DNA of 47,394 bases from a virus. The position numbers and the translations under genes are program-made. Below are positions 4,137-40,316 of the stretch, piece by piece. Where the stretch lies: IMG/VR virus record IMGVR_UViG_3300026484_000346, positions 1-47,394 of that record; one strand, written 5' to 3'. The notes beneath the pieces were generated by a model. It was not told where the DNA came from and did not search any database. It saw nothing but the letters and a program-made list of their open reading frames with translations. The first letter of the stretch is position 1, and each line of letters begins with the position of its first letter.

Positions 4137-4263
4137 TATTTTAAGACTATTGATTAAGTAAAATAAAGGTAAGAATTAAGTTTCTTACCTTTTATATTTT
4201 TATATGTACTATATTTTTCTTTTAGCGGGGTTTAGATATAGTACATATAAAAATATAAATAAA
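4109..4263 (+). repeat. 155-bp direct repeat, copy 1 (gene 23 tail, terminator, late promoter)
   Basis: Identical to 5270-5424. It contains the last codons of gene 23, a hairpin terminator, the AT-rich inverted repeat of the endonuclease leader and a TATAAATA. After a short unlike linker, similarity resumes with CCCGCTAGGTTCTGTTATCT. The duplication brackets the first endonuclease gene. Confidence 0.95.
4165..4195 (+). terminator. Terminator of gene 23
   Basis: AAAGGTAAGAA and TTTCTTACCTTT pair around a short loop, followed by a T-rich tail. Present in both copies of the 155-bp repeat. Confidence 0.75.
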
Positions 4264-4282
4264 AAAGATACAAATCCCGCTA
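4193..4282 (+). promoter_or_regulatory. Pseudoknot-type leader of endonuclease 1, with late promoter inside
   Basis: A perfect 22-bp inverted repeat (4193-4214 with 4236-4257) has TAGCGGGGTTT (4223-4233) in its loop. This can pair with AAATCCCGCTA (4272-4282), giving an H-type pseudoknot with one G-U pair. TATAAATA at 4254-4261 lies at the right arm, so late transcripts starting there would lack the left strands. The same arrangement precedes the endonucleases at 5479 and 40215. Confidence 0.65.
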
Positions 4283-4310
4283 GGTTCTGTTATCTTAAAC
4301 GGGGCAAATT

Positions 4311-5297
4311 ATGAAGCTACTACAATATAAACATAATAAAATTAATTATGATAAATTAAATACAAATAAAGCATATAAAAAATCTGTAATAAATAAACTA
4401 AAATTTTGGTATTTTTACAATAGATACAGTGAAGAAACTGCCTTTTATTGGTTATATAAAAAGAGAAGAAACCAAATACATACATTCATAAAATTCTTTA
4501 ATATAAAATCAAAAATATTTAAAGACAACAAAAGTTCAACAGAATATTTTTACAATAAAATATTTGCTAAAAAATGTATTGAATGTAACAAGACATTTGC
4601 TTCTAAAACAGGAAAGTTTTGTTCTGTGAAATGTTCCAATAATTATAAAGCAAAGGATGCTGATTTTATAGTAAAACTAAGTAATGGTATAAAAAAGTCT
4701 TGGGAAAATCTTAGTTCTAAAGAAAGAGCTATTAGAAAGAAACAAATCTCAGAAGGAAACAAGAAATTTTATGCTAATTTATCTGAACAAGAATATAAAG
4801 ATTTTTGGGATAATTGGAAAACGACATATAAGGCAACTTGTTTATTAAATTATGGTTATAACAATTATTTTGAGGTACCTAAGCATATAGAATCTTTCAA
4901 GGAAAAAAGAAAACAAACAAATATTTTAAGATATGGTGGATTAGCACCCAATTGTTCCGAAGACATAAAAATGAAAGTTAGAAAAACATTAAGAAAAACA
5001 AATGAAGCATCTGGCAAATGGGTAAAAGAAGAAGATGTTTCAGACTTTAAGTTATATTCAAAAATAACAAGAAAACTAACAGAAAAGCAACCAATACATT
5101 TATTAGAAAATTTTAATAAAAGAGGAACAGTAGATAAAGAAGGAGCTTATCATCTAGATCATAAAACCCCAATAAAATATGGCTTTGATAATTGTATCTT
5201 GCCTTATATTATAGCAGATATAAAAAATTTAGAAATGATACCTGCATTAGATAATATCAAAAAAGGGAGTAATTTTTCAGATAGTTTCTTAAAATAA
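4311..5297 (+). CDS. HNH homing endonuclease, 3' end fused to duplicated gene 23 tail
   Basis: Free-standing homing endonuclease of 328 residues. The N-terminal part is basic. A zinc-finger-like CIECNKTFASKTGKFCSVKC stretch lies near 88-107, and the C-terminal HNH motif reads YHLDHKTPI...NCILPYIIADIKNLEMIP...N..KG at about 283-322. The last eight residues, NFSDSFLK, are those of the capsid protein and come from the 155-bp duplication, so the reading frame runs into the copied gene 23 end. This implies insertion at, or recombination with, the 3' end of gene 23. The start ATG is preceded by a weak GGGG ribosome site 29 bases after the pseudoknot leader. Confidence 0.8.
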   Translation: MKLLQYKHNKINYDKLNTNKAYKKSVINKLKFWYFYNRYSEETAFYWLYKKRRNQIHTFIKFFNIKSKIFKDNKSSTEYFYNKIFAKKCIECNKTFASKTGKFCSVKCSNNYKAKDADFIVKLSNGIKKSWENLSSKERAIRKKQISEGNKKFYANLSEQEYKDFWDNWKTTYKATCLLNYGYNNYFEVPKHIESFKEKRKQTNILRYGGLAPNCSEDIKMKVRKTLRKTNEASGKWVKEEDVSDFKLYSKITRKLTEKQPIHLLENFNKRGTVDKEGAYHLDHKTPIKYGFDNCILPYIIADIKNLEMIPALDNIKKGSNFSDSFLK

Positions 5298-5424
5298 TAT
5301 TTTAAGACTATTGATTAAGTAAAATAAAGGTAAGAATTAAGTTTCTTACCTTTTATATTTTTATATGTACTATATTTTTCTTTTAGCGGGGTTTAGATAT
5401 AGTACATATAAAAATATAAATAAA
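5270..5424 (+). repeat. 155-bp direct repeat, copy 2
   Basis: Identical to 4109-4263. It supplies the stop codon and terminator of endonuclease 1 and the leader of the endonuclease pseudogene that follows. Confidence 0.95.
5326..5356 (+). terminator. Terminator after endonuclease 1
   Basis: Second copy of the gene 23 terminator hairpin within the 155-bp repeat. Confidence 0.7.
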
Positions 5425-5448
5425 TTAAAAAGGTAAGAAACCCCGCTA
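5354..5448 (+). promoter_or_regulatory. Pseudoknot-type leader of the endonuclease pseudogene
   Basis: Same 22-bp inverted repeat as at 4193. Here the loop TAGCGGGGTTT (5384-5394) meets a perfect partner AAACCCCGCTA (5438-5448), where copy 1 has a T. The distal strand thus changed in a linker that otherwise diverged while pairing was kept. Late octamer at 5415-5422. Confidence 0.6.
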
Positions 5449-5478
5449 GGTTCTGTTATCTTAAATGGAGCAAAACAA

Positions 5479-6910
5479 ATGACCAAACAATACCTATTAG
5501 ATAACAAAGACTTTTTTTAAAGAAAAACGGAAATATCAATTCTCTTAAGCTTAAAAAGTATAAAGTTAAAGTCGAAGATTTTTATAAAATAATTAATAAC
5601 CTTGATTCTACTCCCTTATGCATTTGTGGGCGCAACAGAAAGTTTATTCGAGGGAATTATTTGAATAGTTGTGGAGCTAAAGAATGTGCTTATAAAACAG
5701 CTCGTCTTAAGACTAAAAACAATAAGAACTATGAAATGGTAAGAGAACAAAATAAGCTTAAAACTAAAGAAATTAACACTAAAAAAGAGAAAATACGAAA
5801 AGAAATATCTAATTTAAACAGATATCATAAAGAACTAGATCAAGGTTACAAAATTGGCATGTCTGTAGATAACCCTACAGATGTCAATAGAGAGTACTGG
5901 ACAATAAATTTTATAGAAAACAATTTATTTGATAAAGAACAGTGCATCAATTATCATAAATGTAGTGCATCGTATATAGATAAAACCAAAAAGTTTTTCA
6001 GTATTTTAATCCCTAATAAGCCTACAAAAGATACTATAGAACAAAGAATTAACAAAGAATTCAATAACATATTCACAATAAACGATAGAATCTTTATAAA
6101 GCCTTTGGAAATAGATTTAATAAATGAAGAAAATAAGTTTGGTATAGAATACAATGGTCTTATATGGCATAGTTTAGGCAAATCAGAACATAGCAAATTC
6201 AATAACTTAAATGAAAGAGAATTTAAAAATAAACACATAAATAAAACCAATTTAGCGGAAGGAAAAGGAATACAATTATTTCATATATTTGAAAATGAAT
6301 GTTAAATAAAAATAAAAAAAGTATATGGATTTCTATAATAGAGGATAAATTAAATAAAAATAAAAAAGTTGGTGCTAGAAAATGTATAATAAAAGAAGTT
6401 CTTAATAAGGAAGCTAAAGAATTCATAGATGATAACCATATGCAAGGATACTCTAACTCTTCTATAAGAATAGGTTTATATTATGAAGAAGAGCTAATGT
6501 CTATAATGACTTTTGGGAAGTCTAGATTTAATAAAAATATAGAATATGAACTTATTAGGTTTTGTACTAAGAAAGGATATACTATACAAGGTGGAGGTTC
6601 TAAGTTGCTTAAGTACTTTGAAAGAACATATAAACCTAAGAGTTTGATATCATATGCTAATAGAAGATGGAGTACAGGTAATTTCTATATAAAATCAGGC
6701 TTCACATTTAGTCATAATACTCTACCCAATTATTTCTATTTTCATCCTAAAGAAAACATACTATGGTCTAGAAATAAGTTCCAAAAACATAAGTTAAAAG
6801 GTTTATTAGAAACCTTTAATCCAGATGTTACTGAAACCATAAATATGTTTAACAACGGTTATAGAAAAATTTATGATTCAGGCAATAAAGTATACTTAAA
6901 AGAGTATTAA
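5479..6910 (+). pseudogene. Frameshifted VSR-fold homing endonuclease (relic of the type intact at 36933-38558)
   Basis: The reading frame starts at ATG 5479 and runs into a stop after 12 codons at a T tract (5511-5517). The original frame continues from there and ends at 6305 in FENEC-stop, where the intact relative reads FENEW. One missing G there moves the rest into the frame 6299-6910. The parts are a Cys-containing N-terminal region, the endonuclease core (PLEIDLINEENKFGIEYNGL, then WHS) and a C-terminal domain with ARKCIIKEV...HMQGY...IMTFGKSRF...YANRRWSTGNFY. Two single-base losses mean no full-length protein. It lies downstream of the duplicated gene 23 tail. Confidence 0.85.
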
Positions 6911-6916
6911 TTTTTG

Positions 6917-7132
6917 TTATTGTCTCCGTGAATTAAAACATTTTTCAATTTGTTTAAATATAAAATCTTTATTTCCGGGTTTCAATTCTCTGCCGTTACA
7001 TTTATAAAAATTATAAAATTTTATTAAATCCTTCTTCCTAATAGTTTTAATAAATGCTCCATACCCATAACTATGTCCTTCGCCCCAAACCAATATATTT
7101 CTAATTACTTTTGCGGGTAGTTTATAAGCCAT
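6917..7132 (-). CDS. Small basic protein, unknown function
   Basis: A 71-residue Lys-rich protein containing WGEGHSYGYGAF in the middle. Its ATG overlaps the stop of the upstream membrane protein (TAATG), which indicates translational coupling in a minus-strand operon. No family recognised. Confidence 0.6.
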   Translation of the reverse strand: MAYKLPAKVIRNILVWGEGHSYGYGAFIKTIRKKDLIKFYNFYKCNGRELKPGNKDFIFKQIEKCFNSRRQ

Positions 7133-8307
7133 TATCTTTTTCTTTCCTGGTTATTAAGGAATTTATATGCAATAAATCCACTTATAATTATATTTCCTAA
7201 AAGAATTAATAATTGCCATTTCCAATCTAATGTTATATTCTCTTTAAGGTATGCAAATTCAGCCATCGGTTTTCTAATATATTCTGAGTTTATCAATTTT
7301 TCAAATTCTGCTAGTATTAATGGATTAACTTCTTTTCCATCAAAATTATTTTGCATATCTACTATAAAATCTGTATTATTAGTGAAACAAATCACATCTG
7401 ACCATTGAATCTTTTTATTTTCATCAATCCCTAATACTAAAGTTATATCATTTTTCTTACCCATTGACCAATGTTGTGATAAAGCATCCTTAAAACTTCT
7501 GTCAAATTTATCTGCTGATACAATATATATTATTGGATTTGCTTGTTTAGTTTCACCGACTCTTGTAGAAAGTTTATTTGTTAAATGTAACATTGTATTT
7601 AAATCAACCTTACCAGTTGTATCAATTATTCTGTTTAATTTTGTTTCACCATATTTACCCTTATAAAGTGACGGATATTCTCTCAAAATTCCTATTTTAA
7701 CAAGTTGTGCTATATTTTCTTTAGGTACTTTTAAATGAATTACATTTCCTTTTGCTGCAGCAACTACATTTTCATAACTATGTCCTACAGATGTTGCTAT
7801 AGCTTTATTTGGATATGATACAAATTTATTACCATCTCCAAACGAAACTTGTCCGCTTCTATGAAGATATACTTCTTTAGAGCCAAACTCTCTTGAAGTT
7901 TTTAAATAATCACCTCGTCTGATAGAAATGGTTTCACCTAAATCTGTTTTAATCTGATAATATGGACTATGATAATCTCTTCTTGTTTTTGGTCTGGTAC
8001 AAGTTCTAGGAGCTTTAGAAGTACCACAAGGATAACTTTCTGTATAATGAACTAATTCTGTCCATTCTTCATAATATGTACTTGACTTCACTTTTCCGTT
8101 GTAATAATTTGTGTCCCAAATTTCTGTACTAAATGAAAATGCCGCAAAAAATACAATACTTACATAAGCTAAAGTTGCTGCTGTCTGAATTCCAAACTCT
8201 TTCCAGATATATTCTCTATTTGTTAAAACCAAATACAATGCTATAATTATTGGAATACTTAAGTTCAGGATAAAACCCCAATTACTAACTATAATATCAA
8301 ATAACAT
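7132..8307 (-). CDS. Membrane protein with TPM-like extracytoplasmic domain
   Basis: 391 residues. Hydrophobic segments at about 9-27, 41-60 and 363-384 frame a large soluble region. The C-terminal third of that region (NPIIYIVSADKFDRSFKDAL, QHWSMGKKNDITLVLGID) recalls TPM/phosphatase-like domains found in membrane proteins, including phage ones. The pair CGT...CTR near 93-102 may form a disulphide. It belongs to an early operon read from the promoter near 8520. The function is unknown; altering the host envelope is a guess. Confidence 0.65.
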   Translation of the reverse strand: MLFDIIVSNWGFILNLSIPIIIALYLVLTNREYIWKEFGIQTAATLAYVSIVFFAAFSFSTEIWDTNYYNGKVKSSTYYEEWTELVHYTESYPCGTSKAPRTCTRPKTRRDYHSPYYQIKTDLGETISIRRGDYLKTSREFGSKEVYLHRSGQVSFGDGNKFVSYPNKAIATSVGHSYENVVAAAKGNVIHLKVPKENIAQLVKIGILREYPSLYKGKYGETKLNRIIDTTGKVDLNTMLHLTNKLSTRVGETKQANPIIYIVSADKFDRSFKDALSQHWSMGKKNDITLVLGIDENKKIQWSDVICFTNNTDFIVDMQNNFDGKEVNPLILAEFEKLINSEYIRKPMAEFAYLKENITLDWKWQLLILLGNIIISGFIAYKFLNNQERKR

Positions 8308-8490
8308 TTATAATCCTTTAAAATATTCTATCTTTGTTGCTACTTCTTTAGCAACTTCAGTGTGCTTATATTCAAAAGTTCTTGAAGTAGAACTATTATT
8401 TATAACACCGTAAACGGTAACATTCCCATCTTTTAAAGTTACTTTAAAAATTTTACTAAATGACTTTACTATATCTTTATAATTTTTCAT
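8308..8490 (-). CDS. Small protein, unknown
   Basis: 60 residues, first gene behind the early promoter at 8505-8545, abutting the membrane protein. It is a mixed beta/alpha sequence with no motif. A ribosome site (AAGGATAGAAAG) precedes the ATG. Confidence 0.6.
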   Translation of the reverse strand: MKNYKDIVKSFSKIFKVTLKDGNVTVYGVINNSSTSRTFEYKHTEVAKEVATKIEYFKGL

Positions 8491-8504
8491 CTTTCTATCC
8501 TTCT

Positions 8505-8545
8505 TTTTATATATTATAATTATAACATAATAACCTTAAAGAAAA
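8505..8545 (-). promoter_or_regulatory. Early-type promoter
   Basis: On the minus strand: TTAAGGTTATTATGTTATAAT, with TATAAT as -10 box and TTAAGG nine bases upstream of it. The same composite occurs at many minus-strand gene starts here (11.5, 18.7, 28.6, 36.9 kb). It serves the genes 8490 down to 6917. Confidence 0.65.
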
Positions 8546-8546
8546 A

Positions 8547-8909
8547 TTAAATGAAATATTCTGGATATTTCATTGTATTCTGTTTATCCGTGAAAACAAA
8601 AAGAGGAAGTGCCCCTTCCTTTAACTCTCGAAACATATTATCACCACTTGGTATCAAACCATTCATATAATCACTTGGATAACATGCAATTAATGATAAT
8701 TTATATTGACAAGATACAACAAATTCTGTATCTTGTATTCTGCTAATACTCGGACCTTTTTGGGTTTCATGATTTACAAAATCATATTTAAGATACATAA
8801 TAAGTTCATTTATTTCTTGTTCATTTTTAACATAAACAGAATATTTTCGACCTTGTATTAAAAATTTATTTTCAACTTCCTCATACATTTCTCGTCTGTG
8901 TTCAAGCAT
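8547..8909 (-). CDS. Unknown protein, 120 residues
   Basis: Acidic to neutral soluble protein with no signal or membrane segment. Residues 15-75 look like a small alpha/beta fold (FLIQGRKYSVYVKNEQEINE). AAGGA lies upstream of the ATG. It follows the LemA-like gene in the same direction. No family recognised. Confidence 0.6.
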   Translation of the reverse strand: MLEHRREMYEEVENKFLIQGRKYSVYVKNEQEINELIMYLKYDFVNHETQKGPSISRIQDTEFVVSCQYKLSLIACYPSDYMNGLIPSGDNMFRELKEGALPLFVFTDKQNTMKYPEYFI

Positions 8910-8929
8910 TTTATTCCTTTTTAATTTTT

Positions 8930-9490
8930 TTAAAAAAGTTCCGGTGTTTCATCTTCACCCGTTTTCCAAGTTTTCTTAGTGCCTTTGGTTGAGATTATTC
9001 TATCCATAATTTTTGTTGCTTTTGGTGTTGGATAACTAAATATTCCACTTGCAACTGTACCTTTTAAAGTTGTTTTTAAATATGTTCTATATTCCTGTGT
9101 TACCGAGATTTTACTTAATTGTCTTGCTTCTTTTTTAGCATAAACTTTCTCAATAGTTTTCATAAGTGTTTTATGTAAATCAGGTGACATCTGGCTTCTT
9201 GCTTCTTGTACAAACTTCATCATTGCATTTTTGTCATTTTCATATCTTTTAGCATTTGCTTCTAAAGACTTAATAAATGTTTCACCATAATTTTTAACTG
9301 TTATACCACTTAATTTTAATTGCTGTTCCATCATACCCCAAGTATTTTGCATACTTTCATCTTGTGCATAAATTGCCTGTTCGTATTTTTCTGCTGTAAA
9401 CTTTGCTGATACTACATATCCAACTGTTCCTCCAATTAATAACATAAAACTTAATACTACACCTAAAATCACTTTTGTTGTCTTGCTCAT
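8930..9490 (-). CDS. LemA-like membrane-anchored protein
   Basis: The start is set at ATG 9490 (MSKTTKVILGVV) because a strong ribosome site (AAGGAAAGAAAG) precedes it; the frame is open further upstream to 9535. About 186 residues, with an N-terminal membrane anchor (residues 5-26) followed by a helical region with YAQDESMQNTWGMMEQQLKL and an Arg/Lys-rich tail. The layout and the QDESMQNTW stretch recall LemA-type proteins seen in several large phages. Role unknown, probably at the inner membrane or periplasm. Confidence 0.6.
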   Translation of the reverse strand: MSKTTKVILGVVLSFMLLIGGTVGYVVSAKFTAEKYEQAIYAQDESMQNTWGMMEQQLKLSGITVKNYGETFIKSLEANAKRYENDKNAMMKFVQEARSQMSPDLHKTLMKTIEKVYAKKEARQLSKISVTQEYRTYLKTTLKGTVASGIFSYPTPKATKIMDRIISTKGTKKTWKTGEDETPELF

Positions 9491-9501
9491 TCTTTCTTTC
9501 C

Positions 9502-9660
9502 TTATCTTTCTTCGATTTTTTCTATATTTGTACAAAAAACATTTGCACTACATTTTTCTAATACATAAACTATATCTTCAGCTTCTTTAATTGTTTCGCA
9601 TTCTATTTCTGTATCAGAATTATATTCACAATCTCCAACTGTTAAAATTACTTTATACAT
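9502..9660 (-). CDS. Small acidic protein, 52 residues
   Basis: ATG at 9660 and TAA at 9502, ending 11 bases before the LemA-like gene start. It begins MYKVILTVGDCEYNSD and has the composition of a small alpha/beta protein. It lies in a compact run of same-strand genes. No family recognised. Confidence 0.45.
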   Translation of the reverse strand: MYKVILTVGDCEYNSDTEIECETIKEAEDIVYVLEKCSANVFCTNIEKIEER

Positions 9661-9852
9661 CTTCTTCTGCCTTTAAATTTATGCATTTTACAAAATCTCT
9701 TAAACTTTGAACTACTTTATTAAATAATATTCTTAATGTTCTATCTGGCGTACTACCAATTCTGTATAATCAAGAACCTATTGTCCTTTAACCTCATTTT
9801 CAATATATTCAAAGAATGATTGGAACTCTTCTTTTATATCTTCTACTGACAT
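9653..9852 (-). pseudogene. Broken small gene
   Basis: ATG at 9852 overlaps the end of the lipoprotein gene and begins MSVEDIKEEFQSFFEYIENE, but the frame stops at 9778 after 24 codons. A second frame (GSTPDRTLRILFNKVVQSL and onward) has no start codon and runs to TAA at 9653. The two halves look like one protein broken by a small indel. A tiny intact 24-residue gene is the alternative. Confidence 0.4.
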
Positions 9853-10052
9853 TTTGAAATAAAACCATCTGTGTCATATCTTACCGAAAATTCACCCGCA
9901 TATTTACCTTTTGAAAATAAATATTCAATATTTTTTTCTTTGTCACAATAAACTTGAACTCTTTTGAATGATCTTTCATCTTCTGTTGAACCACAACCAG
10001 CAAATAAACTGGCGATTAAAGTGGTTGCTAATACTAATTTTAGTACCATCAT
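9843..10052 (-). CDS. Small lipoprotein (paralogue of 28355-28582)
   Basis: 69 residues. A lipoprotein signal ends in LFAGC (lipobox Cys near 19), followed by a mature part with VQVYCDKEKNIEYLF and SVRYDTDGFISKC. The same pattern (CNKETNVEYLI, SVRYNLDGSI) occurs in the lipoprotein at 28.4 kb, and both recall DUF6440-type small domains. Probably anchored in the host membrane. A superinfection-exclusion role is only a possibility. Confidence 0.7.
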   Translation of the reverse strand: MMVLKLVLATTLIASLFAGCGSTEDERSFKRVQVYCDKEKNIEYLFSKGKYAGEFSVRYDTDGFISKCQ

Positions 10053-10297
10053 TAAACAGCCAAATTAGATTCGACTACTTTGTAACCATAAGCTACCCCA
10101 AAACCAATTAAAGGTGCAACTATAAATCCTGCAGATGTAAATACAAATGCTGTTATTCCTGCAACTGTTCCAAAATAAGCCGGTTTATTTTGATATAAAT
10201 CTTTACTTAATTGAACGGCTACATTTTTAAAATCAATGTCCGTTTTTCTACCCATTTTCTCGTTTAACTCATTTATTTTTCTATCCATTGCTGTCAT
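10052..10297 (-). CDS. Small membrane protein
   Basis: 81 residues with a charged N-terminal 35 residues and two hydrophobic stretches (about 38-55 and 57-72) that could form a hairpin in the membrane. Its stop overlaps the lipoprotein start. Function unknown. Confidence 0.6.
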   Translation of the reverse strand: MTAMDRKINELNEKMGRKTDIDFKNVAVQLSKDLYQNKPAYFGTVAGITAFVFTSAGFIVAPLIGFGVAYGYKVVESNLAV

Positions 10298-10298
10298 T

Positions 10299-10604
10299 TT
10301 ATTTTCCTTTATGTTGTTTTATAGCTTCTTTTACAGAAACTTTATTTTTAATTTTTTTGAAAAACTCTTTACTATCTTTTCTTCTTTTAATTTCTTTATC
10401 AGAAACTATAATTTTAACTATTTTAATATCTGTTACAGTTCCGAAATTATAAGGTTTTTCTTTAATTATATTAATATGTTTTTCTGCCGTTTCTATTTTA
10501 GCAAACTCTTTTGGATTTTGTTTTTGAAAGCTAAATCCAGTGTAAAAACCTTTATATTCTTTTCCACCATAAATTGCTTTACCTGTTATAATAAATCGTT
10601 CCAT
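10299..10604 (-). CDS. Unknown protein, 101 residues
   Basis: Basic, Lys-rich protein beginning MERFIITGKAIYGGKEYKGF, first gene of the operon behind the promoter at 10660-10700. A beta-rich first half is followed by a charged helical tail. No family recognised. Confidence 0.6.
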   Translation of the reverse strand: MERFIITGKAIYGGKEYKGFYTGFSFQKQNPKEFAKIETAEKHINIIKEKPYNFGTVTDIKIVKIIVSDKEIKRRKDSKEFFKKIKNKVSVKEAIKQHKGK

Positions 10605-10659
10605 CTTTCTTTCCTTATTTTAATTCTAATGCTTTTACATTAGTACTTTTTGTTTTTGT

Positions 10660-10700
10660 TAATATAATTATAACAGGTTAATATTAAGCTAAAATTAAAT
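10660..10700 (-). promoter_or_regulatory. Early-type promoter
   Basis: Minus strand reads TTAATATTAACCTGTTATAAT followed by TATATT. The TGTTATAAT core matches the other early promoters, while the upstream box is TTAATATTAACC. This subtype recurs at 24.9, 26.7 and 43.9 kb. Confidence 0.6.
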
Positions 10701-10705
10701 TAATC

Positions 10706-11476
10706 CTAATATCTATAAAGATTAGGTTTAACTATTGACATAACTTTTGCGTCAATTTTGTCACTATAATTTTTAAAGTTCCCACCAAAAAATCGTCTTA
10801 GCATACTTTCATCTTTTGATTTACAGCCTTTTAGTGTTGGCTTTTTATACATTTCATTTAATACAAAACCAACTGCTTTAATGTTTACATCAGGTAAAAA
10901 TAAATCTGAACGAGTTTGAGCTATTCCTTCTTTTTTAAGTGCTTCTCCCCACCATTCCCAAACGATTCCTCCAAGCCCAACAGCCCTTACATATTTTTTC
11001 TTACCTTTAATTGTTATGAGAACTCTACTATGTTCAATTTGAAACCTCATTGTACTTTCAACATGCAGTAAACTGTAAACAATTAAAGGATTAATATTAT
11101 ATTTTTTCGCTGTTTCTATAACATTTTCTATAATTATTTTTTGAATTCTAGGAGACAACTTCGTATATAATTTTAAGTTCGCTTCTAATAAACTTTTATT
11201 AATAAGAATAAAAGACTTTTTATCTTTCCAAGAGTTAATATTTTTAATTTTAGTATTTAGGGTTAATATGCGTTTTTCTAGTTGTTCTTTTTCTAAAGAA
11301 ACATTAGTAAGTTTTATTTCTCGCTTTTTTAGTTCTTTTTTAATAATTTCGAACTCACTTTGAGACTTATTTAAATATTTAGAACCGATAACGACCCCAC
11401 CGCTCATTATAACACTTGCCGCAATTATTGAACCCGCTAATACTTTTTTGCTAAAGCATTTTTTAATATTATCCAT
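10706..11476 (-). CDS. Membrane-anchored lytic transglycosylase (SLT fold)
   Basis: 256 residues. An N-terminal anchor (about 10-34) is followed by a coiled coil (38-80) and then an SLT-type catalytic domain from about 110. The candidate catalytic Glu lies in YSLLHVEST, followed by the AVGLGGIVWEWW segment that corresponds to the family's GLMQ loop. It would cut the glycan strand of peptidoglycan from the periplasmic side. The gene is alone behind its own early promoter, which fits an early envelope or lysis-timing role rather than a virion enzyme. Confidence 0.72.
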   Translation of the reverse strand: MDNIKKCFSKKVLAGSIIAASVIMSGGVVIGSKYLNKSQSEFEIIKKELKKREIKLTNVSLEKEQLEKRILTLNTKIKNINSWKDKKSFILINKSLLEANLKLYTKLSPRIQKIIIENVIETAKKYNINPLIVYSLLHVESTMRFQIEHSRVLITIKGKKKYVRAVGLGGIVWEWWGEALKKEGIAQTRSDLFLPDVNIKAVGFVLNEMYKKPTLKGCKSKDESMLRRFFGGNFKNYSDKIDAKVMSIVKPNLYRY

Positions 11477-11494
11477 TTTACACCTTTTTTAGAT

Positions 11495-11530
11495 ATAGTT
11501 AATTATAACTTAATAACCTTAAGATAACAT
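11495..11530 (-). promoter_or_regulatory. Early-type promoter
   Basis: Minus strand: TTAAGGTTATTAAGTTATAAT, nearly the same as at 8505-8545, about 30 bases upstream of the transglycosylase start. Confidence 0.65.
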
Positions 11531-11535
11531 TAATT

Positions 11536-12231
11536 CTAGAGGAAAGTTTCTCTTTTAAGAGGAAAGATTTTACCGTTTTCCCAATACTCTGCTTCATAAG
11601 TTTTATCTTCTAATTTTTCTTTAACTAGAACAAAATGATTAAGATTATATTCCAAATCACCTCTAATATTGGGAACATTAACATTATGATTAATAGCATT
11701 TGACAATTTCGCTTCTTTACCGTATTCCATTAGTACATTTCTTGTAGCTATGAGACCTTTAATATAAGGATTAAAACAATAATAAATCTTATAATTTTTT
11801 TCTTTTGCTCTCCCCCACTTAAATATTTTTGTACTTCCGAGCTTTTTAGAAATTTCCGAAACTTCAGTAAAACCCTGGGCAGAAAAAACTATAATATATT
11901 CTTCTTTATGCGCATTCGTTAGTTCTTTTGGAATAATATAATCCCAATAAGTGTCATCTTTTCCCTCTCTTCTTTTAAGTAAATATGCCTCATTAGGTTG
12001 TACAGGCTTAACAACTGAAACCATCCAATTTATATCTGTTGAAGTGGCAAAATCGTAATTTACAAAAGACGGCAAATCCCTTTTGCTTTTTAATTTAATA
12101 AATCTTGTAAAAGGGGCGCGAATCCTTATGTATTCTTCAAGCTCTATGCCATTATTTTTAGAAGCTTGTAGAAAACTATTATAAGTTTCTACATTATAAT
12201 ATCTATCAAAAGTTATATAAATAGGTCTCAT
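11536..12231 (-). CDS. Unknown late protein, 231 residues
   Basis: The start is placed at ATG 12231 (MRPIYITFDRYYNVETYN) because AAAGGAGAG lies just before it and the late promoter just before that; the frame stays open to 12294. Soluble alpha/beta protein. MRPIYITFDRYYNVETYNSF hints at a conserved N-terminal fold, but no family is recognised. Late expression suggests a virion or morphogenesis role. Confidence 0.6.
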   Translation of the reverse strand: MRPIYITFDRYYNVETYNSFLQASKNNGIELEEYIRIRAPFTRFIKLKSKRDLPSFVNYDFATSTDINWMVSVVKPVQPNEAYLLKRREGKDDTYWDYIIPKELTNAHKEEYIIVFSAQGFTEVSEISKKLGSTKIFKWGRAKEKNYKIYYCFNPYIKGLIATRNVLMEYGKEAKLSNAINHNVNVPNIRGDLEYNLNHFVLVKEKLEDKTYEAEYWENGKIFPLKRETFL

Positions 12232-12240
12232 AGACTCTCC

Positions 12241-12258: not shown

Positions 12259-12269
12259 AGGGTATTCAT

Positions 12270-13650: not shown

Positions 13651-13651
13651 A

Positions 13652-31144: not shown

Positions 31145-31159
31145 ATAAAAGGATGTTAA

Positions 31160-31750: not shown

Positions 31751-31751
31751 T

Positions 31752-32315: not shown

Positions 32316-32318
32316 ATA
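32311..32318 (+). promoter_or_regulatory. T4-type late promoter
   Basis: Exact TATAAATA overlapping the end of the upstream gene, about 115 bases before the structural gene at 32431. Confidence 0.55.
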
Positions 32319-32430
32319 TTATTGGGGCTATATATGTTTTGAATTAGAAATCTAATATATAAATAATGATAAGATAGGTGTATTCCTATCAATAAAATAG
32401 TCTTTGATAAAAGACGAGAGGAGAAATAAA

Positions 32431-33654: not shown

Positions 33655-33670
33655 TTCTTGTAAAAGATGA

Positions 33671-33705
33671 ACCTTAAAAATAGAATTAACTTCTATTTTT
33701 AAGGT
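33671..33705. terminator. Bidirectional terminator
   Basis: ACCTTAAAAATAGAA and TTCTATTTTTAAGGT pair perfectly around TTAAC, with A/T runs on both sides, between two convergent genes. Confidence 0.8.
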
Positions 33706-33716
33706 GAGTTTAATAG

Positions 33717-34592
33717 TTAATTTAGTAAATTAACTATATTTTCTAAATTATCTGAAATATTAAACATAGTTTGATTTGCATTAATACCTTCATAATCGTT
33801 ATAAGAACAGATTATATCAGCTGAATCTATATCAGTTGTAATTAAGAATTCATTTGCTTCACAATACATAGAAAGTAAATCAAACATATTTTCTTTATAA
33901 TCAATAGCATTAAATACTAATTTTTTATATTTTTCCATTTTTCTTGCCATAGAATCGATATTAATACCTTGTTGTTCTTCTGAATATTGATCAATCATAA
34001 CAATTTCCATAGTTTCTAGATCAATTGCAACAGCAGAATGACTTTGAAAATTTCCGCCTATTTTTATCTTAAATAAAGAATCATTTAAATTAATAAATTG
34101 TGTCTTTTCTGTTCTTAATTCATCTAGTAATTGAACACCTGACCACGCTTGCATGTCATCATAATCTGCTGCTCCTGAATAAATAAATTCAGCCGTAAGT
34201 ATGTAACGATAACCATCTTTTTTTGCTTTATTAATATCTATATCACAAAATTCTGCAGTTATCTTCCCATCTAATGGCTCATATGCTCTGCAAGAAGTAA
34301 AGTCACCCGAATGTACCCCAAAATCAGTATCCTGATTGTAAAATGCTAACGGAGTACCCATTAAAATATTATCCTTATCTGTTATACCTAAACATCCTAA
34401 ATCTACATCAATATCACCTTCTTTTCCGCTTTTAGTCGCCCAAGCAGTAAATAACCTTACAAATTTAATATCTTTACTTAAAGGAATTCTAGTCCCAGGT
34501 GTAAATATTTTATTTTCTGCTTTTGAATTATTTCTCATTTCTGACGGAACTACATAACCTTTTAATTTATTATCTATATAAACTTTTCTCAT
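33717..34592 (-). CDS. TerD-like stress protein
   Basis: 291 residues. VRLFTAWATKSGKEGDIDVD, LGCLG, FGVHSGDFTSC, and ITAEFCDIDINKAKKDGYRYILT give the Asp-rich order of TerD/CABP domains, which bind calcium in bacterial ter systems. The C-terminal 120 residues are less conserved. It is coupled to the upstream 467-residue gene with a one-base gap. Bacterial ter clusters act in tellurite and phage-related stress; a phage copy could blunt such a response or use it during infection. Confidence 0.65.
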   Translation of the reverse strand: MRKVYIDNKLKGYVVPSEMRNNSKAENKIFTPGTRIPLSKDIKFVRLFTAWATKSGKEGDIDVDLGCLGITDKDNILMGTPLAFYNQDTDFGVHSGDFTSCRAYEPLDGKITAEFCDIDINKAKKDGYRYILTAEFIYSGAADYDDMQAWSGVQLLDELRTEKTQFINLNDSLFKIKIGGNFQSHSAVAIDLETMEIVMIDQYSEEQQGINIDSMARKMEKYKKLVFNAIDYKENMFDLLSMYCEANEFLITTDIDSADIICSYNDYEGINANQTMFNISDNLENIVNLLN

Positions 34593-34593
34593 A

Positions 34594-35997
34594 TTATTTT
34601 CCTTCTCTTAATTCTTGTTCTTGAATATCTTCAACTACTGAAGGAAATAAATCCTTACCAGCTAAATGTTTAATCACTGTATTTCTAAGAGTTTTTACAA
34701 CTTTCTTAGTTCTTTTTTCTTTAAGTGGCTCTAGGGATTTTAGAACTGTTTTAGGAGTTCCTTTAATATTAAATGTTCTTTCTTTAAAACCATTTTTAAT
34801 TCTAAACTCAAGCCATTTTTTAACTTGAATTGTTAATTTCGGATTTAACTTAATTTCAGATAATTTTACTACTAACTTTTTCCTTGCTGGTTTATCGCCC
34901 TTCCTAATTATCATATCTAAACTTCTTAAAAGTTCGCCAGGTTTATCTGATAAATGGCCAACTAATGCTTTATAATCGCCCAAGTTAATCATTTTTTGAG
35001 TTCTGGAATTAAAAGTTTCGATTTTACCACCATTTCTTAAATATTCAAATACTTCTTGTGCTCCGCTAAATCTTTTAAATTTTGCTGAACCTGGATGTAA
35101 ATTTGTAGCAATACCCAACCATTGTGATTTATATGGCTTCATATCACCGATTAAGTTTCCTAAATTTTTCCTTGCTAATTTATCTAAAGATCCCATAACA
35201 ATTTTTTTATCTGCTGTAGATAATTTGAATTTGACACCAGTGAATAAATTCTGTACCTCAAAACCTGAAACGAAATAACAATAACGAAGTATATCTGTAG
35301 CAGTTTTAAGAACATCGTTATGTTTAACGAATTCTTTACCAGTAATTTCAATTAACTTAAATAAATTTTCTTTTACTTTAATACTAGAAACATTTGATAA
35401 AACTTCACTTAATTCTTCTGATCTATTTGCTTCTTGAATAAATTCAACTTGTTGCTCACCAAAAACAATAGGAGATTCTAAAATAACTTTTACATCATTT
35501 CTAAAGTCTGCAACAGTTTTGGTGTCAATAATCCTAAATGTATTATTTAAATCTTGTTTATCTTTTCTTTTAGATACATTAGAAATTTGTATTTTTCTTT
35601 TTTCATCAATTTCAAATACCTCATAATCAATTTCACCTAAATTATAAGAAATAAAATAGTGTTGAATTTGTTCAACAAAATCTTCAGAAGTAAATGCTTC
35701 ATCTTCAATTTCTTCACCAGTAGCAAAAACACTTCTAAAGATTTGCCCCTGCATAGAAGCGTAAATTGTATCAAATTGTTCTTTAATTGTTTTAAAATCT
35801 ACCGCTTCCATAGTACATAAGTTCTGTACTAATTCTTTTGATAACAAAAGATTATTTTTCTCAGCTCTTTTAAGCATCTTAGTAACACCTTTCAAGTTAC
35901 TATTTTTACCTGTACCTCTATAAGATACTACATATCCTTTAGGAACCGTTACCGCTAATCTGATTTGACCTTTGTTACTTAATTGAGTATTTTCCAT
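34594..35997 (-). CDS. TerD-associated large protein
   Basis: 467 residues, Lys-rich, no membrane segment. KPGELLRSLDMIIRKGD near 354-370 and YKSQWLGIATNLHPGSAKF near 288-306 recall a protein that accompanies TerD genes in bacteria (RPGE..RRLD.LLR signature, LHP upstream). Its role there is unknown. Together with the TerD-like gene it forms a two-gene operon. Recognition is from pattern memory, so family membership is tentative. Confidence 0.5.
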   Translation of the reverse strand: MENTQLSNKGQIRLAVTVPKGYVVSYRGTGKNSNLKGVTKMLKRAEKNNLLLSKELVQNLCTMEAVDFKTIKEQFDTIYASMQGQIFRSVFATGEEIEDEAFTSEDFVEQIQHYFISYNLGEIDYEVFEIDEKRKIQISNVSKRKDKQDLNNTFRIIDTKTVADFRNDVKVILESPIVFGEQQVEFIQEANRSEELSEVLSNVSSIKVKENLFKLIEITGKEFVKHNDVLKTATDILRYCYFVSGFEVQNLFTGVKFKLSTADKKIVMGSLDKLARKNLGNLIGDMKPYKSQWLGIATNLHPGSAKFKRFSGAQEVFEYLRNGGKIETFNSRTQKMINLGDYKALVGHLSDKPGELLRSLDMIIRKGDKPARKKLVVKLSEIKLNPKLTIQVKKWLEFRIKNGFKERTFNIKGTPKTVLKSLEPLKEKRTKKVVKTLRNTVIKHLAGKDLFPSVVEDIQEQELREGK

Positions 35998-36039
35998 ATT
36001 AATCCTTTTGAGTTATGGTTAGATATATTGAGTTAAATA

Positions 36040-36655
36040 AAATTATTTTATAAAGAAAACTAATCTATAATAGTGATTTTTTGTAAAATTGTTAGAAGTA
36101 ACTTTTATATAATGTTTTCTTTATAAAATAATCTACTTGTTAAGTGTTTGTTAAGTGTTTGTAAAGAATTTGAACTAAATGAGACAAGTGTAAACCTTAA
36201 TTACTTTTCGGAGTAATTCCTATCTAAGTATTCTGCTTAGCCGTATCCCATCCTTGCTCAGCACCCTGAGGCATTTTGCTTGGGCTTCTATTAAAGACTG
36301 GGTATCTTACGATACTTATTTATTTTTTAGAAGTAACTTGTTTTATTTCGGTTCTCTTATGTTCAAATATCTTAATAAAATAAACTAATCGGTTATCGTT
36401 CCCTGTCTTACGACGATTCCATTTTTTACTTAAATAATTTTTTAGAAGTAACGAAAATTATATATGGGACCTTATGTTTATTTTATTAAGATATTTATCT
36501 TTTTGTTATACAATTATAACAAAGTTTTACTTAATTTTATAAAACTAATTTTCCTCCTCTTCATAATAAATGGAGAGGCGGCTTACACTACAAGATCAAA
36601 AGACTACTTAATCTTATTGCAATTTAGAAGTAATTATCTTTTTATGTTTCTTATA
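36040..36655 (-). ncRNA. Tandem structured noncoding modules
   Basis: No gene over 600 bases. Four modules share one layout on the plus strand: left arm ending AAC, then TAAT or TAAAT, a variable core, TTAGAAGTAAC (about 36091, 36331, 36442; TTAGAAGTAAT at 36625), then a right arm starting GTT. Arms: 36042-36060 with 36113-36131 (19 bp), 36163-36175 with 36361-36373, and 36366-36391 with 36475-36494 (19 bp). Arm sequences differ but pairing is kept. Module 2 adds four small hairpins. Early-type promoters on the minus strand at about 36490-36525 and 36645-36675 suggest minus-strand transcripts. Confidence 0.55.
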
Positions 36656-36895
36656 TTATACTAAAGTTTTACTTAATAAATCTGCTTTATAAGAAAACAC
36701 TGCATAAGGAGTCCACATATATTCATCTTCATAGGCTAAAACTTTACTCAACTCTTCATTGACACTATATTCATCTTTAGTGCCTATCTTATATACTAAG
36801 TAAATAGACCCCTCCACTAAAAATCCATCCACAGAAGTTTTAGTGCTATCTGTTGTATTCCCCAAATAGTTGGGCTCTGTTATATTAAATTTCAT
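36656..36895 (-). CDS. Unknown protein, 79 residues
   Basis: Acidic protein beginning MKFNITEPNYLGNTTDSTKT, with Tyr-rich middle strands (SIYLVYKIGTKDEYSV). Own early promoter and AAGGAAAA ribosome site. Not recognised. Confidence 0.6.
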   Translation of the reverse strand: MKFNITEPNYLGNTTDSTKTSVDGFLVEGSIYLVYKIGTKDEYSVNEELSKVLAYEDEYMWTPYAVFSYKADLLSKTLV

Positions 36896-36904
36896 ATTTT
36901 TCCT

Positions 36905-36945
36905 TTATTACTTAATTATAACATATATTACCTTAAAAGTACCTT
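36905..36945 (-). promoter_or_regulatory. Early-type promoter
   Basis: Minus strand: TTAAGGTAATATATGTTATA then ATTAAG; spacing one base longer than the standard form. Confidence 0.6.
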
Positions 36946-38558
36946 TTAATAAAAACTTTATTACCACTATCATATATTTTTCTATAATTGTTGTTAAACA
37001 TATTTATTGTTTCGGTATCTTTTGGATTAAAGGTTGCCAATAACCCTTTTAACTTATGTTTTTGAAACTTATTTCTAGACCATAGTATATTTTCTTTAGG
37101 GTGAAAATAGAAATAATTGGGTTTTGTATCATGACTAAAAGTAAAACCCGATTTTATATAGAAGTTGCCTTTAGACCATCTTCTATTAGCATATGATATT
37201 AAACTCTTAGGTTTATAAGTTTTCTCGAAGTAATTAAGCATCTTAGAACCGCCTCCCTGTAAAGTATAGCTTTTTTTAGTACAAAATCTAATAAGCTCAT
37301 ATTCTATATCTTTATTAAATCTAGATTTGCCAAAAGTCATTATAGACATTAGGTTGTCTCTATAATATAATCCTATTTTTATAGAAGAGTTGCAGTATCC
37401 TTGTAGATGATTTTCATCAACAAATTTTCTAGCTTCCTTAGTTTCTACTTCTTTAATAATGCATTTTCTGGCACCTATTTTAATATTTTTATTTAATTTA
37501 TCTTCTATTATAGAAACCCATATAGATTTTTTATTTTTATCTAACCATTCATTTTCAAATATATGTAATAGTGTATAGCCTTTTTCCTCCAACAGTAATG
37601 TTTTATTTAGATGTCTATTTTTATCTTCTGTAGGTTTATTAAACATAGAATGCTTAGAAATACCGAATGAATGCCACATTAGACCGTTATATTCTATTCC
37701 TATTTTATATTCTTCATTTAAAAGATCTATCTCTAGTGGTTTTATTAATTTTCTATCATTTATATAGAAAATGTTGTTAAACTCGTTGTTGATTTTTATT
37801 TCGACTGTCTCTTTAGAAGGTATATTTTTAGTGGTGATATTGTATTCACGCTTCAAAACATTAACTTTATCACTTTTAATATTATAGAACGACATACATC
37901 CCTCCTTATTAAAATAACCGTTTTTTATAAAGTTTTTAAAACCATGACTATTTAACGATTGTTTATTGAGTATATGAATAGAAGAAGCGGATTTAACACC
38001 ATAATTGGAATTAATAGTATAAGAAATTTTTAGTGGGTTGTTATAATTTTTATCGTTGTATTTTTTCTCTTTAGTCTCTTCTCTTTTACTTACTATTTTT
38101 CTTTTTTCTTTTGGAATTTTTTGGCGCCAAGATTCTTGTTTCTTGGAAACAATAGTAGATAACTCTTCTGTTGTTTTGTTTTTCCATTTTTCCATTTTTT
38201 TATTTTTAATATTTTCTCTGTCTTGGTTAGTCTTAGACTCTAAGGTCTTTCTAAAATTGTTAAGTCTCCTGGCTTTTTCTTTCTCAGTTTCTTTTTTTCT
38301 GCTTTCACTTAAGCTTTTAGCTTGTTTAGAATATCTCTTCTGTTTCCTTTTAGTGTTGCAGATACATTTTGGGTCACTACAGTAGTCAGCATACCCTTTA
38401 GGGAACGAAATAAATTTAAGTTTGTTATTTCCCTCACATTGATGGTTACCAGTATTTAAAATATTGTAAGCCTGCTCGGCTGTAATGCCAAGTTGTTTTA
38501 AACGGAGAGGGTTTATTTTTCCACTCTCCGAAATAAGTTTTCTGATTTCTTTTTCCAT
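36933..38558 (-). CDS. VSR-fold homing endonuclease, intact
   Basis: 541 residues. Order: N-terminal helices (LKQLGITAEQAYNIL), a Cys pattern CSDPKCICN near 60-68, a long basic coil (70-170), the endonuclease core KPLEIDLLNEEYKIGIEYNG followed by LMWHS, LLEEKGYTLLHIFENEW, and a C-terminal domain with ARKCIIKEVETKEARKF, HLQGY, LMSIMTFGKSRF and YANRRWSKGNFY that looks acyltransferase-like in layout. It is the intact relative of the broken gene at 5479-6910. It directly follows the 3' exon of the intron-bearing ATPase gene. Two hairpins (TAGTATT/AATACTA and AGTATT/AATACT) precede the start; the second has AAGG in its loop and touches the ATG. Confidence 0.82.
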   Translation of the reverse strand: MEKEIRKLISESGKINPLRLKQLGITAEQAYNILNTGNHQCEGNNKLKFISFPKGYADYCSDPKCICNTKRKQKRYSKQAKSLSESRKKETEKEKARRLNNFRKTLESKTNQDRENIKNKKMEKWKNKTTEELSTIVSKKQESWRQKIPKEKRKIVSKREETKEKKYNDKNYNNPLKISYTINSNYGVKSASSIHILNKQSLNSHGFKNFIKNGYFNKEGCMSFYNIKSDKVNVLKREYNITTKNIPSKETVEIKINNEFNNIFYINDRKLIKPLEIDLLNEEYKIGIEYNGLMWHSFGISKHSMFNKPTEDKNRHLNKTLLLEEKGYTLLHIFENEWLDKNKKSIWVSIIEDKLNKNIKIGARKCIIKEVETKEARKFVDENHLQGYCNSSIKIGLYYRDNLMSIMTFGKSRFNKDIEYELIRFCTKKSYTLQGGGSKMLNYFEKTYKPKSLISYANRRWSKGNFYIKSGFTFSHDTKPNYFYFHPKENILWSRNKFQKHKLKGLLATFNPKDTETINMFNNNYRKIYDSGNKVFIKRYF

Positions 38559-38600
38559 AGTATTATCCTTAATACTATTATAGTATTTAATTACTTAATA

Positions 38601-39209
38601 CTAAGCGAATTTTTGAGCTAGTATTTTCCAATTAGGTTTTTTAGCTAATACTTTTAATTTAAGTGCTGTAACCATCGCTCTTACTGTAACACCTTTTATT
38701 CTTCTTGCGTCTCCAGCTGTAGCATATTGAATACCATTTCTTACTAAAATATCTGTTTCTGCTTCTGCTTCATTTAAAGCATCTACAACTTCATCAACAT
38801 CTTCAGCAGTAAAATAACTACTTGGTGCCATAGCATGTCCGATAGTTTTGATTCTTCTGATAACATCTGTACTTTCTAAGAAAATATCAATAAATAAACT
38901 TCTTGACATTAATGCTCCACCCGAATCCACTTTTCTAAATTTAGCAATAGGCATATTACTAATAAAAACCATTGCACCAGTAAATCTAAATTTACTTGGT
39001 AATCGAACTTCACCTTTTCCTGGACCAATTTGTTTCCCATCAGCAATTTCCATATCTACTTCTGCAATATAATCATCCACTTCTTCATCAGTTTTGCCGA
39101 CCATAGGAGCATTACCTGGAGAATAAGTCATATAGTTTGCGCCACTTGTATCAAGAGCACCTTTAAGAGCTGTCATAATATCACTATTATTAAATAAATC
39201 GTCGCATTC
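38601..39209 (-). CDS. ATPase, 3' exon
   Basis: 203 codons from the inferred 3' splice site (after G at 39210) to TAA. Begins ECDDLFNNSDIMTALKGALD; joined to exon 1 it gives IIVWD-ECDDLF, a Walker B motif. RFTGAMVFISNMPIAK is the sensor-like segment, and VDSGGALMSRSLFIDIFL contains the arginine-finger region. A shorter internal ATG (39176) opens the frame but would give half a protein. Joined product about 502 residues. Confidence 0.75.
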   Translation of the reverse strand, partial: ECDDLFNNSDIMTALKGALDTSGANYMTYSPGNAPMVGKTDEEVDDYIAEVDMEIADGKQIGPGKGEVRLPSKFRFTGAMVFISNMPIAKFRKVDSGGALMSRSLFIDIFLESTDVIRRIKTIGHAMAPSSYFTAEDVDEVVDALNEAEAETDILVRNGIQYATAGDARRIKGVTVRAMVTALKLKVLAKKPNWKILAQKFA

Positions 39210-39261
39210 CTTTTATATTCAATACATATCGTTAATATGTACCCGTTGTTAATAGATTATA

Positions 39262-40215
39262 TTATAAGATTGAGACCTTATAATCTATATAGTTATTTAT
39301 ATTTTTAAGAAAATCATTAGCTCTAATTTTTAGTGTTCTATTTTGAAAACTTATTTCCAAATTTTTTCTTATACCAACAATATTAGGGTTATTGTCAAAT
39401 TCCTCTTTGGATATAGTTACGCGAGTTCGTGTATTAATATTAAGCCCGTTTACTTTATTTTTGGTGGGATGATAAAATTCTCCACTTTTAATTAAGTCTG
39501 AATTTTTGGATAATAGTTTAGTTACTCCCTCTTTATTAACAACGGGAGTATAGCCTTTATTTCTCCCTTGTAAACCTTCTTTTTCGGCATCAACTATGCT
39601 TATATTAATTAAGTGTCCGTCTTTCCAAAAATTGGATTTACCTTTCTGTACTCCCGCATACCCTTTATTAAATATTATAGGGTTTTTGATATCTAAAACT
39701 TTTACTTTTCCATCTACTATATAAGTAGTTTTACCAGTTGAGTGCCCTTTCATTTTTAGTTTGATGAATGTATCTTTACTTACCCATCGTTTTTCTTTAT
39801 TATTAGTAACCACCATCCCAGAAAAATTAGGATTGGTTGGGTTCTGAATATTCTTATTAAAAAACACTTCATTATCTTTAACATTAAAATATTGGTGAAG
39901 AAAAGATTCATATATAATCATATCCCCCGGATTATTAAAAACCTTCATTATCTTTACCTTAAATCTTTTTTCTTTATATTTTTTAATTAATTCTTTCTTT
40001 TTGCTAGATGTACAATAATTCCAGAAATCTTTAAGAACATCTTCTTGTTTGGATATTCTTGAGCCATAATAATATTCGTTGTCTTCTAAATCAGTGACTC
40101 TATATACATAATATAGTCCTATATGTTTATTTTCAAATATTAACTTTTCACTTCTTTTATCTTGAAGAACTAATTTTTTATATATGCTGTATCTTTTTGT
40201 TTGTGGAATTTTCAT
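39262..40215 (-). CDS. GIY-YIG intron endonuclease
   Basis: 317 residues from ATG 40215 (MKIPQTKRYSIYKKL), chosen for the AGGAGG just upstream; the frame opens at 40287 inside the leader structure. The N-terminal catalytic domain has LYYVYRVTDLEDNEYYYGSR (GIY and YIG strands with catalytic Arg) and IIYESFLHQYFN (metal-binding Glu). The C-terminal part contains repeated basic DNA-binding segments (KRWVSKDTFIKLKMKGH, TRVTISKEEFDNNPNIVGIR). Layout resembles I-TevI-type intron endonucleases. Confidence 0.85.
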   Translation of the reverse strand: MKIPQTKRYSIYKKLVLQDKRSEKLIFENKHIGLYYVYRVTDLEDNEYYYGSRISKQEDVLKDFWNYCTSSKKKELIKKYKEKRFKVKIMKVFNNPGDMIIYESFLHQYFNVKDNEVFFNKNIQNPTNPNFSGMVVTNNKEKRWVSKDTFIKLKMKGHSTGKTTYIVDGKVKVLDIKNPIIFNKGYAGVQKGKSNFWKDGHLINISIVDAEKEGLQGRNKGYTPVVNKEGVTKLLSKNSDLIKSGEFYHPTKNKVNGLNINTRTRVTISKEEFDNNPNIVGIRKNLEISFQNRTLKIRANDFLKNINNYIDYKVSIL

Positions 40216-40257
40216 CTCTGAATTCCTCCTATAATTAATTTTATAAGAGTGTAGATT

Positions 40258-40316
40258 TAGCGGGCCTACATTATATATGATATTCAAGACCCGCTAGAGT
40301 GAATATCATATATAAT
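40258..40316 (-). promoter_or_regulatory. Pseudoknot-type leader of the GIY-YIG gene
   Basis: Minus-strand order: 16-base arm (40316-40301), TAGCGGG (40296-40290), matching arm (40285-40270), CCCGCTA (40264-40258). Identical architecture to the leaders at 4193 and 5354, but with a different AT-rich stem. A TATAAATA lies just upstream at about 40330. Confidence 0.65.

Follow-up and report, generated by a model that had tools for sequence, protein, structure and literature searches.

We analyzed a 47,394-nucleotide stretch of DNA from a T4-like phage (positions 1 to 47,394 of the IMG/VR record IMGVR_UViG_3300026484_000346, hereafter the window), in which an RNA leader had been predicted from the sequence to precede three homing endonuclease genes (HEGs). 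The order of parts given in that original prediction, i.e., a stem arm, TAGCGGG, the matching stem arm, and CCCGCTA, is indeed found at 4191-4282, at 5352-5448, and on the minus strand at 40318-40258 (referred to as copies 1, 2, and 3 respectively). The stems are longer than the 22 bp and 16 bp first reported, measuring 26 bp in copies 1 and 2 and 19 bp in copy 3. A T/C difference opposite the same G is also confirmed, with T4275 in copy 1 and C at the corresponding site of copy 2; these are the gene 23 copies and not the right region, where the difference had been placed. In the list below, P1 is the hairpin with TAGCGGG in its loop, P2 a second hairpin around CCCGCTA, and P3 a helix that takes in the Shine-Dalgarno; the two loop strands are termed kissing strands.

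2772-4136, gene 23 (Pfam Gp23), upstream of copies 1 and 2
4109-4263, plus strand, first copy of a direct repeat that takes in the gp23 3' end, a terminator-like hairpin, P1, and the late octamer, and recurs unchanged at 5270-5424
4191-4259, plus strand, copy 1 hairpin P1, 26-bp arms 4191-4216 and 4234-4259, loop 4217-4233, with compensatory changes in relatives
4223-4229, plus strand, copy 1 5' kissing strand TAGCGGG
4254-4261, plus strand, copy 1 late octamer TATAAATA, at the end of the P1 3' arm
4265-4296, plus strand, copy 1 hairpin P2, AAGATA (4265-4270) with TATCTT (4291-4296)
4276-4282, plus strand, copy 1 3' kissing strand CCCGCTA, in the P2 loop
4284-4305, plus strand, copy 1 P3, GTTCTG (4284-4289) with CGGGGC (4300-4305), covering the Shine-Dalgarno
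4311-5297, plus strand, HEG1, HNH-like (phrog_5104/phrog_1271)
5270-5424, plus strand, second copy of the direct repeat, 155 bp identical to 4109-4263
5352-5420, plus strand, copy 2 hairpin P1
5384-5390, plus strand, copy 2 5' kissing strand TAGCGGG, the pairing extending to TAGCGGGGTTT
5415-5422, plus strand, copy 2 late octamer TATAAATA
5430-5462, plus strand, copy 2 hairpin P2, AAGGTAA (5430-5436) with TTATCTT (5456-5462)
5442-5448, plus strand, copy 2 3' kissing strand CCCGCTA
5450-5471, plus strand, copy 2 P3, GTTCTG (5450-5455) with TGGAGC (5466-5471, Shine-Dalgarno)
5479-6910, plus strand, HEG2, phrog_3339 homing endonuclease, in three frames, with two frameshifts (after a T run near 5510-5520, and at 6299-6305)

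The perfect 155-bp repeat shared by copies 1 and 2 extends from the final gene 23 codons to include the late octamer, and the last residues of HEG1 (NFSDSFLK) duplicate the gp23 C terminus. These are therefore one duplicated leader, and the window holds two independent leaders instead of three separate ones. The exact repeat and the copied gp23 tail are traces left by recombination or homing, with tandem HEG insertion behind gene 23 (4109-5424). The frameshifts make HEG2 either a pseudogene or the product of a sequencing or assembly error, and the copy 2 leader may therefore drive a dead gene.

Copy 3 lies behind the core of a group I intron and has an additional outer helix, P0.

40377-40679, minus strand, group I intron core (Rfam RF00028), splitting a phrog_1250 gene, with copy 3 behind it
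40330-40337, minus strand, copy 3 late octamer, upstream of the entire structure
40243-40325, minus strand, copy 3 outer helix P0, ATAAGAG (40325-40319) with CTCTTAT (40249-40243)
40268-40318, minus strand, copy 3 hairpin P1, 19-bp arms 40318-40300 and 40286-40268
40290-40296, minus strand, copy 3 5' kissing strand TAGCGGG
40250-40270, minus strand, copy 3 hairpin P2, TGTAG with CTACA, enclosing CCCGCTA (40264-40258)
40226-40249, minus strand, copy 3 P3, CTCTTATAA (40249-40241) with TTATAGGAG (40234-40226, Shine-Dalgarno)
39262-40215, minus strand, HEG3, phrog_314 homing endonuclease (GIY-YIG in the original prediction), in the 3' part of the group I intron

Just upstream of copy 3, an extra hairpin (TTTATATTTCGA..TCGAAATATAAA, 40375-40335, minus strand) overlaps the late octamer, and its loop AGACC could pair with GGTCT in the copy 3 P1 loop, rivalling the pairing with CCCGCTA.

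A leader fold maintained by covariation

We scanned for hairpins with a loop that can pair with a strand shortly downstream (cut-off score of at least 32), and found three matches in the window, every one adjoining TATAAATA, while dinucleotide-shuffled windows average 0.025. None of 40 shuffled windows contains a kissing hairpin adjoining a late octamer, and the gapped motif pattern does not occur in 100 shuffles. The three leaders match no Rfam family at gathering score. In all three, CCCGCTA lies in the loop of P2; its pairing with TAGCGGG therefore joins two hairpin loops, or displaces P2, and the leader may have the shape of kissing hairpins rather than that of a plain H-type pseudoknot.

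Uncultured relatives were collected from IMG/VR contigs (designated here by L numbers) through gp23 relatives (15 loci), further pattern scans, and whole-contig scans. With near-identical copies counted once, there are 17 leaders in total. The gene 23 layout is seen in ten of them (copies 1 and 2, L005, L007, L008, L034a, L042a, L051, L040, and L061a), and six others (copy 3, L039 minus, L039 plus, L054, L061b, and L060) have the copy 3 layout, in which a late octamer is followed by P0 enclosing P1 and P2, and then by the Shine-Dalgarno; L042c has an outer helix without P2. Behind gene 23 itself, a leader and a HEG occur in L005-L008, and there is no leader in L001, L002, or L003. The closest named relatives of gp23 are about 43-49% identical, and no kissing hairpin adjoining a late octamer was found in complete T4, Campylobacter phage CP21, Vibrio phage Va1, or nearly all of Aeromonas phage 25. 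A GTDB scan with the copy-3-type pattern returned no leader and three unrelated chance matches; scans of viral contigs with a wrong loop spacing or a long-gap TAGCGGG pattern were discarded as mostly chance matches at unrelated genes.

The 17 leaders carry at least nine different kissing sequences (TAGCGGGGTTTA, GTCGTGGTTCTG, CCGCCAGGTTG, GGTCGGTTTA, CTTGCAGGTTACT, TGCGACGTTCT, TGACGGACTTC, TTAGCGGTCT, and TCTCAGGACA among others) with the loop-to-loop helix kept. When 14 leaders are compared, the mean helix score is 27.9 with a strand's own partner vs. 13.6 across groups. In an alignment of eight gene-23-type leaders, both sides have changed in 7/12 kissing pairs, 4/23 P1 pairs, and 1/6 P2 pairs, and 90.2% of the cells are paired, compared with at most 57.6% when the alignment is slid. 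Likewise, ATAAGAG/CTCTTAT of P0 in copy 3 becomes AATAGAG/CTCTATT in L054, with both sides changed. The covariation in related phages on which the original prediction had staked the structure is thus present; the leader is a true RNA fold maintained by covariation, and its structure is secure.

All 17 leaders precede HEG open reading frames (ORFs) or their remnants, which belong to at least four families, in agreement with the earlier claim that the endonucleases behind the leader are unrelated. An HNH-like phrog_5104 gene follows copy 1 and the leaders of L005, L034, L042, L051, and L039 minus; phrog_3339 follows copy 2 and L054, phrog_314 follows copy 3, and an HNH gene of phrog_655 follows L040 and L042c. 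Four others are assigned by sequence resemblance only: HNH-like in L061a, GIY-YIG-like in L061b, a HEG3-like remnant in L060, and a broken gene of zinc-binding type in L039 plus. The leader was also said to be separable from the enzyme, and this is borne out by the copy-3-type leader, which stands before an HNH-like HEG in L039 and before the phrog_314 HEG in the window; layout and enzyme are therefore untied.

The leader shared by L042, L005, and L052 was at first taken to stand before a virion gene; this reading was rejected, as the ORF has a phrog_655 homing endonuclease domain (458-668) and is a HEG too. This 731-aa ORF (L042 4038-6230; also in L005 and L052) joins about 450 residues of no recognised kind to the phrog_655 domain, and its leader combines an outer helix with a 10-bp loop-strand pairing. 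At L034 466-4500 and in L053, several group I intron-like sequences and HEG ORFs per contig lack a kissing leader; the leader is therefore not obligatory for HEGs in this clade. A full-length 541-aa phrog_3339 HEG of the window (36933-38558, minus strand), located after the intron-split gene, also lacks one; an early-type promoter (motif given below) lies directly upstream at 38598-38577, and AGTATT/AATACT around AAGGAT places the Shine-Dalgarno in a hairpin loop.

Exclusive helices and a proposed promoter-choice switch

The Shine-Dalgarno region of the gene-23-type leaders can pair, as P3, with the 3' side of P2 or with bases adjoining it, so that P2 and P3 are mutually exclusive. P3 consists of CTCCGTTT and AAACGGAG around GTCTT in L005, CTAGTTT and GAACTAG around GTCTT in L034a, TTCTGTTT and GAACGGAG around GTCTT in L042a, GTTTATC..GATAAAC in L040, and GTTCTG..CGGAGC in L008; the pairing is maintained despite changes of letters, as between the L005, L034a, and L040 forms.

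The late octamer TATAAATA stands between P1 and P2 in 10/10 gene-23-type leaders. The T4 late octamer spans -13 to -6 relative to the start; with this spacing, the late RNA of all ten is predicted by motif to start at the 5' edge of P2 or close to it, with P1 excluded. In copy 3 and its kin, the octamer lies ahead of the whole structure and the late RNA would keep the 5' part. A second motif, TTAAGT-N10-TATNNT, occurs 8 times in the window vs. 1.24 expected (0/100 shuffles reach 8), and we therefore treat it as a promoter for early or middle transcription in this phage. In the form TTAAG(T/C)-N10-TATNNT, it is found just upstream of P1 in 6/10 gene-23-type leaders; the original prediction had overlooked this early-type promoter in relatives, together with P2 and the competing helix P3.

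To imitate the kissing helix in folding, the kissing strand was barred from other pairing. In eight of the ten gene-23-type leaders, the best fold of the late RNA is P2, which is lost once the kissing strand is occupied, and in seven of these eight the access to the Shine-Dalgarno drops by at least 0.27. The free fraction of the Shine-Dalgarno falls from 0.72 to 0.00 in L007, from 0.69 to 0.13 in L042a, and from 0.49 to 0.07 in copy 2. Summed over nine leaders, the access drop is 3.41, while 400 shuffles give -1.07 ± 0.66 and reach 0.64 at most; the observed sum lies 6.8 standard deviations beyond them. In L005, L034a, and L051, the effect disappears when the block is moved downstream by a single base and so enters the P3 arm; the kissing strand thus ends exactly where P3 starts. 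In L008, a start two bases later trims P2 and covers the site, so the predicted outcome depends on the exact start.

With moderate confidence, we suggest that the gene-23-type leader is a translation switch that responds to the choice of promoter and is gated by the loop-loop helix. RNA containing P1 would arise by read-through from the upstream gene or, in relatives, from the early-type promoter (TTAAGT-N10-TATAAT). In this long RNA, the P1 loop would pair with the strand in the P2 loop, undoing P2 or its inner half, and the freed 3' side of P2 would pair with the Shine-Dalgarno as P3, turning translation off. The late RNA from TATAAATA would start at the P2 5' edge, lack P1, fold P2, and leave the Shine-Dalgarno open; the endonuclease would thus be made late. 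The helices, the motif positions, and the flip on folding are direct results of the analysis, and from them we infer where transcripts start (by T4 spacing), how the RNA folds in vivo, in which direction the effect runs, and how the gene is expressed.

In copy 3 and its kin, the P0 3' arm can pair with either the P0 5' arm or the Shine-Dalgarno. The two duplexes differ by no more than about 2 kcal/mol in 7/7 leaders (the copy 3 layout plus L042c), and these two partners would vie for one strand at near-equal energy. The parts of copy 3 suggest the same kind of strand competition. The original prediction of a switch between read-through and late transcripts is supported by folding in the gene-23-type leaders, but is not supported as worded for copy 3, whose octamer (40337-40330) precedes P0 so that the late RNA retains the whole structure.

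Several points weigh against such a switch. RNAfold cannot score the kissing helix itself. The Shine-Dalgarno of copy 1 is predicted to be covered in both states, the access drop is almost nil in L040, and L061a favors P3 in both states. The energies of P2 and P3 are close, and the sign of the effect could therefore reverse. The gene 23 copies of the window have no early-type promoter, so they would rely on read-through from gene 23. As for copy 3, RNAfold favors P3 and predicts that its late RNA is covered as well, and the idea that upstream sequence masks the decoy arm in copy-3-type read-through RNA was dropped, with a weak trend that stays within that of shuffled upstream sequence.

Alternative readings and known systems

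The closeness of P2 and P3 in energy also leaves room for a switch of opposite sign, in which the kissing helix would clamp P2 and keep the long RNA open, and the short late RNA would slip into P3 and fall silent. Formally, P2 and the kissing helix can coexist, and in several late RNAs the free fraction of the Shine-Dalgarno is only about 30-60%. We regard this as unlikely, since occupying the kissing strand is predicted to cost most leaders the inner half of P2 and so to shift them to P3; in addition, 10-13 bp within a 15-19-nt loop would probably strain the kissing complex, and the T4 precedents all silence the early message.

Less probable still, the structure may serve to stabilize mRNA, with late messages starting flush with P2 or P0, the pseudoknot blocking 5' decay, and the Shine-Dalgarno competition incidental. 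In nearly all octamer-bearing leaders, the predicted late starts do coincide with the 5' boundary of P2 or P0, but P1 is outside the late RNA in the gene-23-type leaders, P3 is kept paired with changed letters, and the access drop exceeds that of shuffles. An equally low probability is given to a protein operator, i.e., a pseudoknot bound in feedback control by the endonuclease itself or by a single-stranded DNA-binding protein. Precedents are the T4 gene 32 leader pseudoknot, which is bound by gp32 (PMC3014915), and I-TevI, which represses its own late promoter (PMC2988022). Against this, one leader type serves several enzymes, and loops are wholly different within one enzyme family, therefore leaving little shared sequence for a protein to read. 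A DNA-level feature without an RNA role (inverted repeats for homing or recombination, or a terminator) is very improbable, even though copies 1 and 2 are part of a direct repeat that has undergone recombination and P1 follows a terminator-like hairpin, as the interleaved A-B-A'-B' pairing covaries across whole helices, which DNA-protein binding or cruciforms would not select, and P1 is followed by A-rich rather than T-rich sequence. We also rejected a terminator role for P1, which has no T-run after it, and a self-cleaving ribozyme or known riboswitch, given that there is no Rfam match and the loop sequences vary freely.

Hairpins that cover the ribosome-binding site (RBS) have been described for I-TevI, I-TevII, I-TevIII, segB, and mobE, where late promoters drop the 5' strand (PMC2988022). 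The kissing leaders resemble these systems of T4 (I-TevI/II/III, segB) and Aeh1 (mobE) in that HEGs of several families are involved and the predicted output is the covering of the Shine-Dalgarno; in gene-23-type leaders, though not in copy 3 and its kin, the late octamer is also placed by motif such that the late RNA would lose a 5' part. In the I-TevI/mobE type, however, it is the 5' strand of the covering helix that is missing from the late RNA, whereas here both P3 strands lie downstream of the late octamer and would be kept, and the lost part would act at a distance, through a loop-loop helix that chooses between exclusive helices. As modeled, the leaders thus follow the logic of I-TevI and mobE but lack one defining feature, namely direct pairing of the lost strand with the RBS.

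In seg43 of Aeromonas phage 25, a very stable hairpin lies just upstream of an uncovered RBS (PMC2988022). This HEG is similar to those here in having a stable hairpin immediately upstream of its RBS, but no kissing partner is reported there, and our scan, covering nearly all of the genome, found none beside a late octamer. The T2/T4 gene 32 leader also contains a pseudoknot, bound by gp32 (PMC3014915), and is likewise a T4-type phage leader in which a pseudoknot affects translation (a predicted effect here). Unlike that short H-type pseudoknot, which involves neither a HEG nor a choice of late promoter, the kissing leaders belong to other genes and have freely varying sequences. Translational riboswitches work through a sequestor and an anti-sequestor, and in E. 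coli pyrC covering of the Shine-Dalgarno is set by the 5' end with which the transcript begins. The kissing leaders would share the sequestor/anti-sequestor pair and the dependence on the 5' end; unlike in these systems, there is no ligand pocket, the loops being free to change, and the input would be the identity of the promoter. We found no published account of kissing leaders before HEGs in the open-access literature, subscription papers being outside the search.

Two other features of the window are recorded here. At its end (47238-47394, minus strand), three tandem 50-bp copies of the TTAAGTAAAAGTTTGTTATAAT promoter are followed by a late octamer, forming an early-type promoter array. A GOLLD RNA (RF02032, just above threshold) lies at 44657-45112 on the minus strand amid eight tRNA genes.

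More tentatively, the leader may be a mobile, modular RNA cassette exchanged among unrelated HEG families, in which a loop-loop "key" of 7-13 bp reads the promoter and flips the Shine-Dalgarno switch; each copy carries its own key sequence, and several in one genome would therefore not cross-pair. If so, the leader would be a naturally occurring RNA device that detects the 5' end of a transcript without a ligand and comes with ready-made, unrelated key sequences, and selfish genes, here from at least four nuclease families, would bring along or take up one regulatory module in common. The family would thereby obtain the early silencing that T4 homing endonucleases owe to simple hairpins through a two-helix choice gated by a loop-loop helix, with a key sequence that varies freely.

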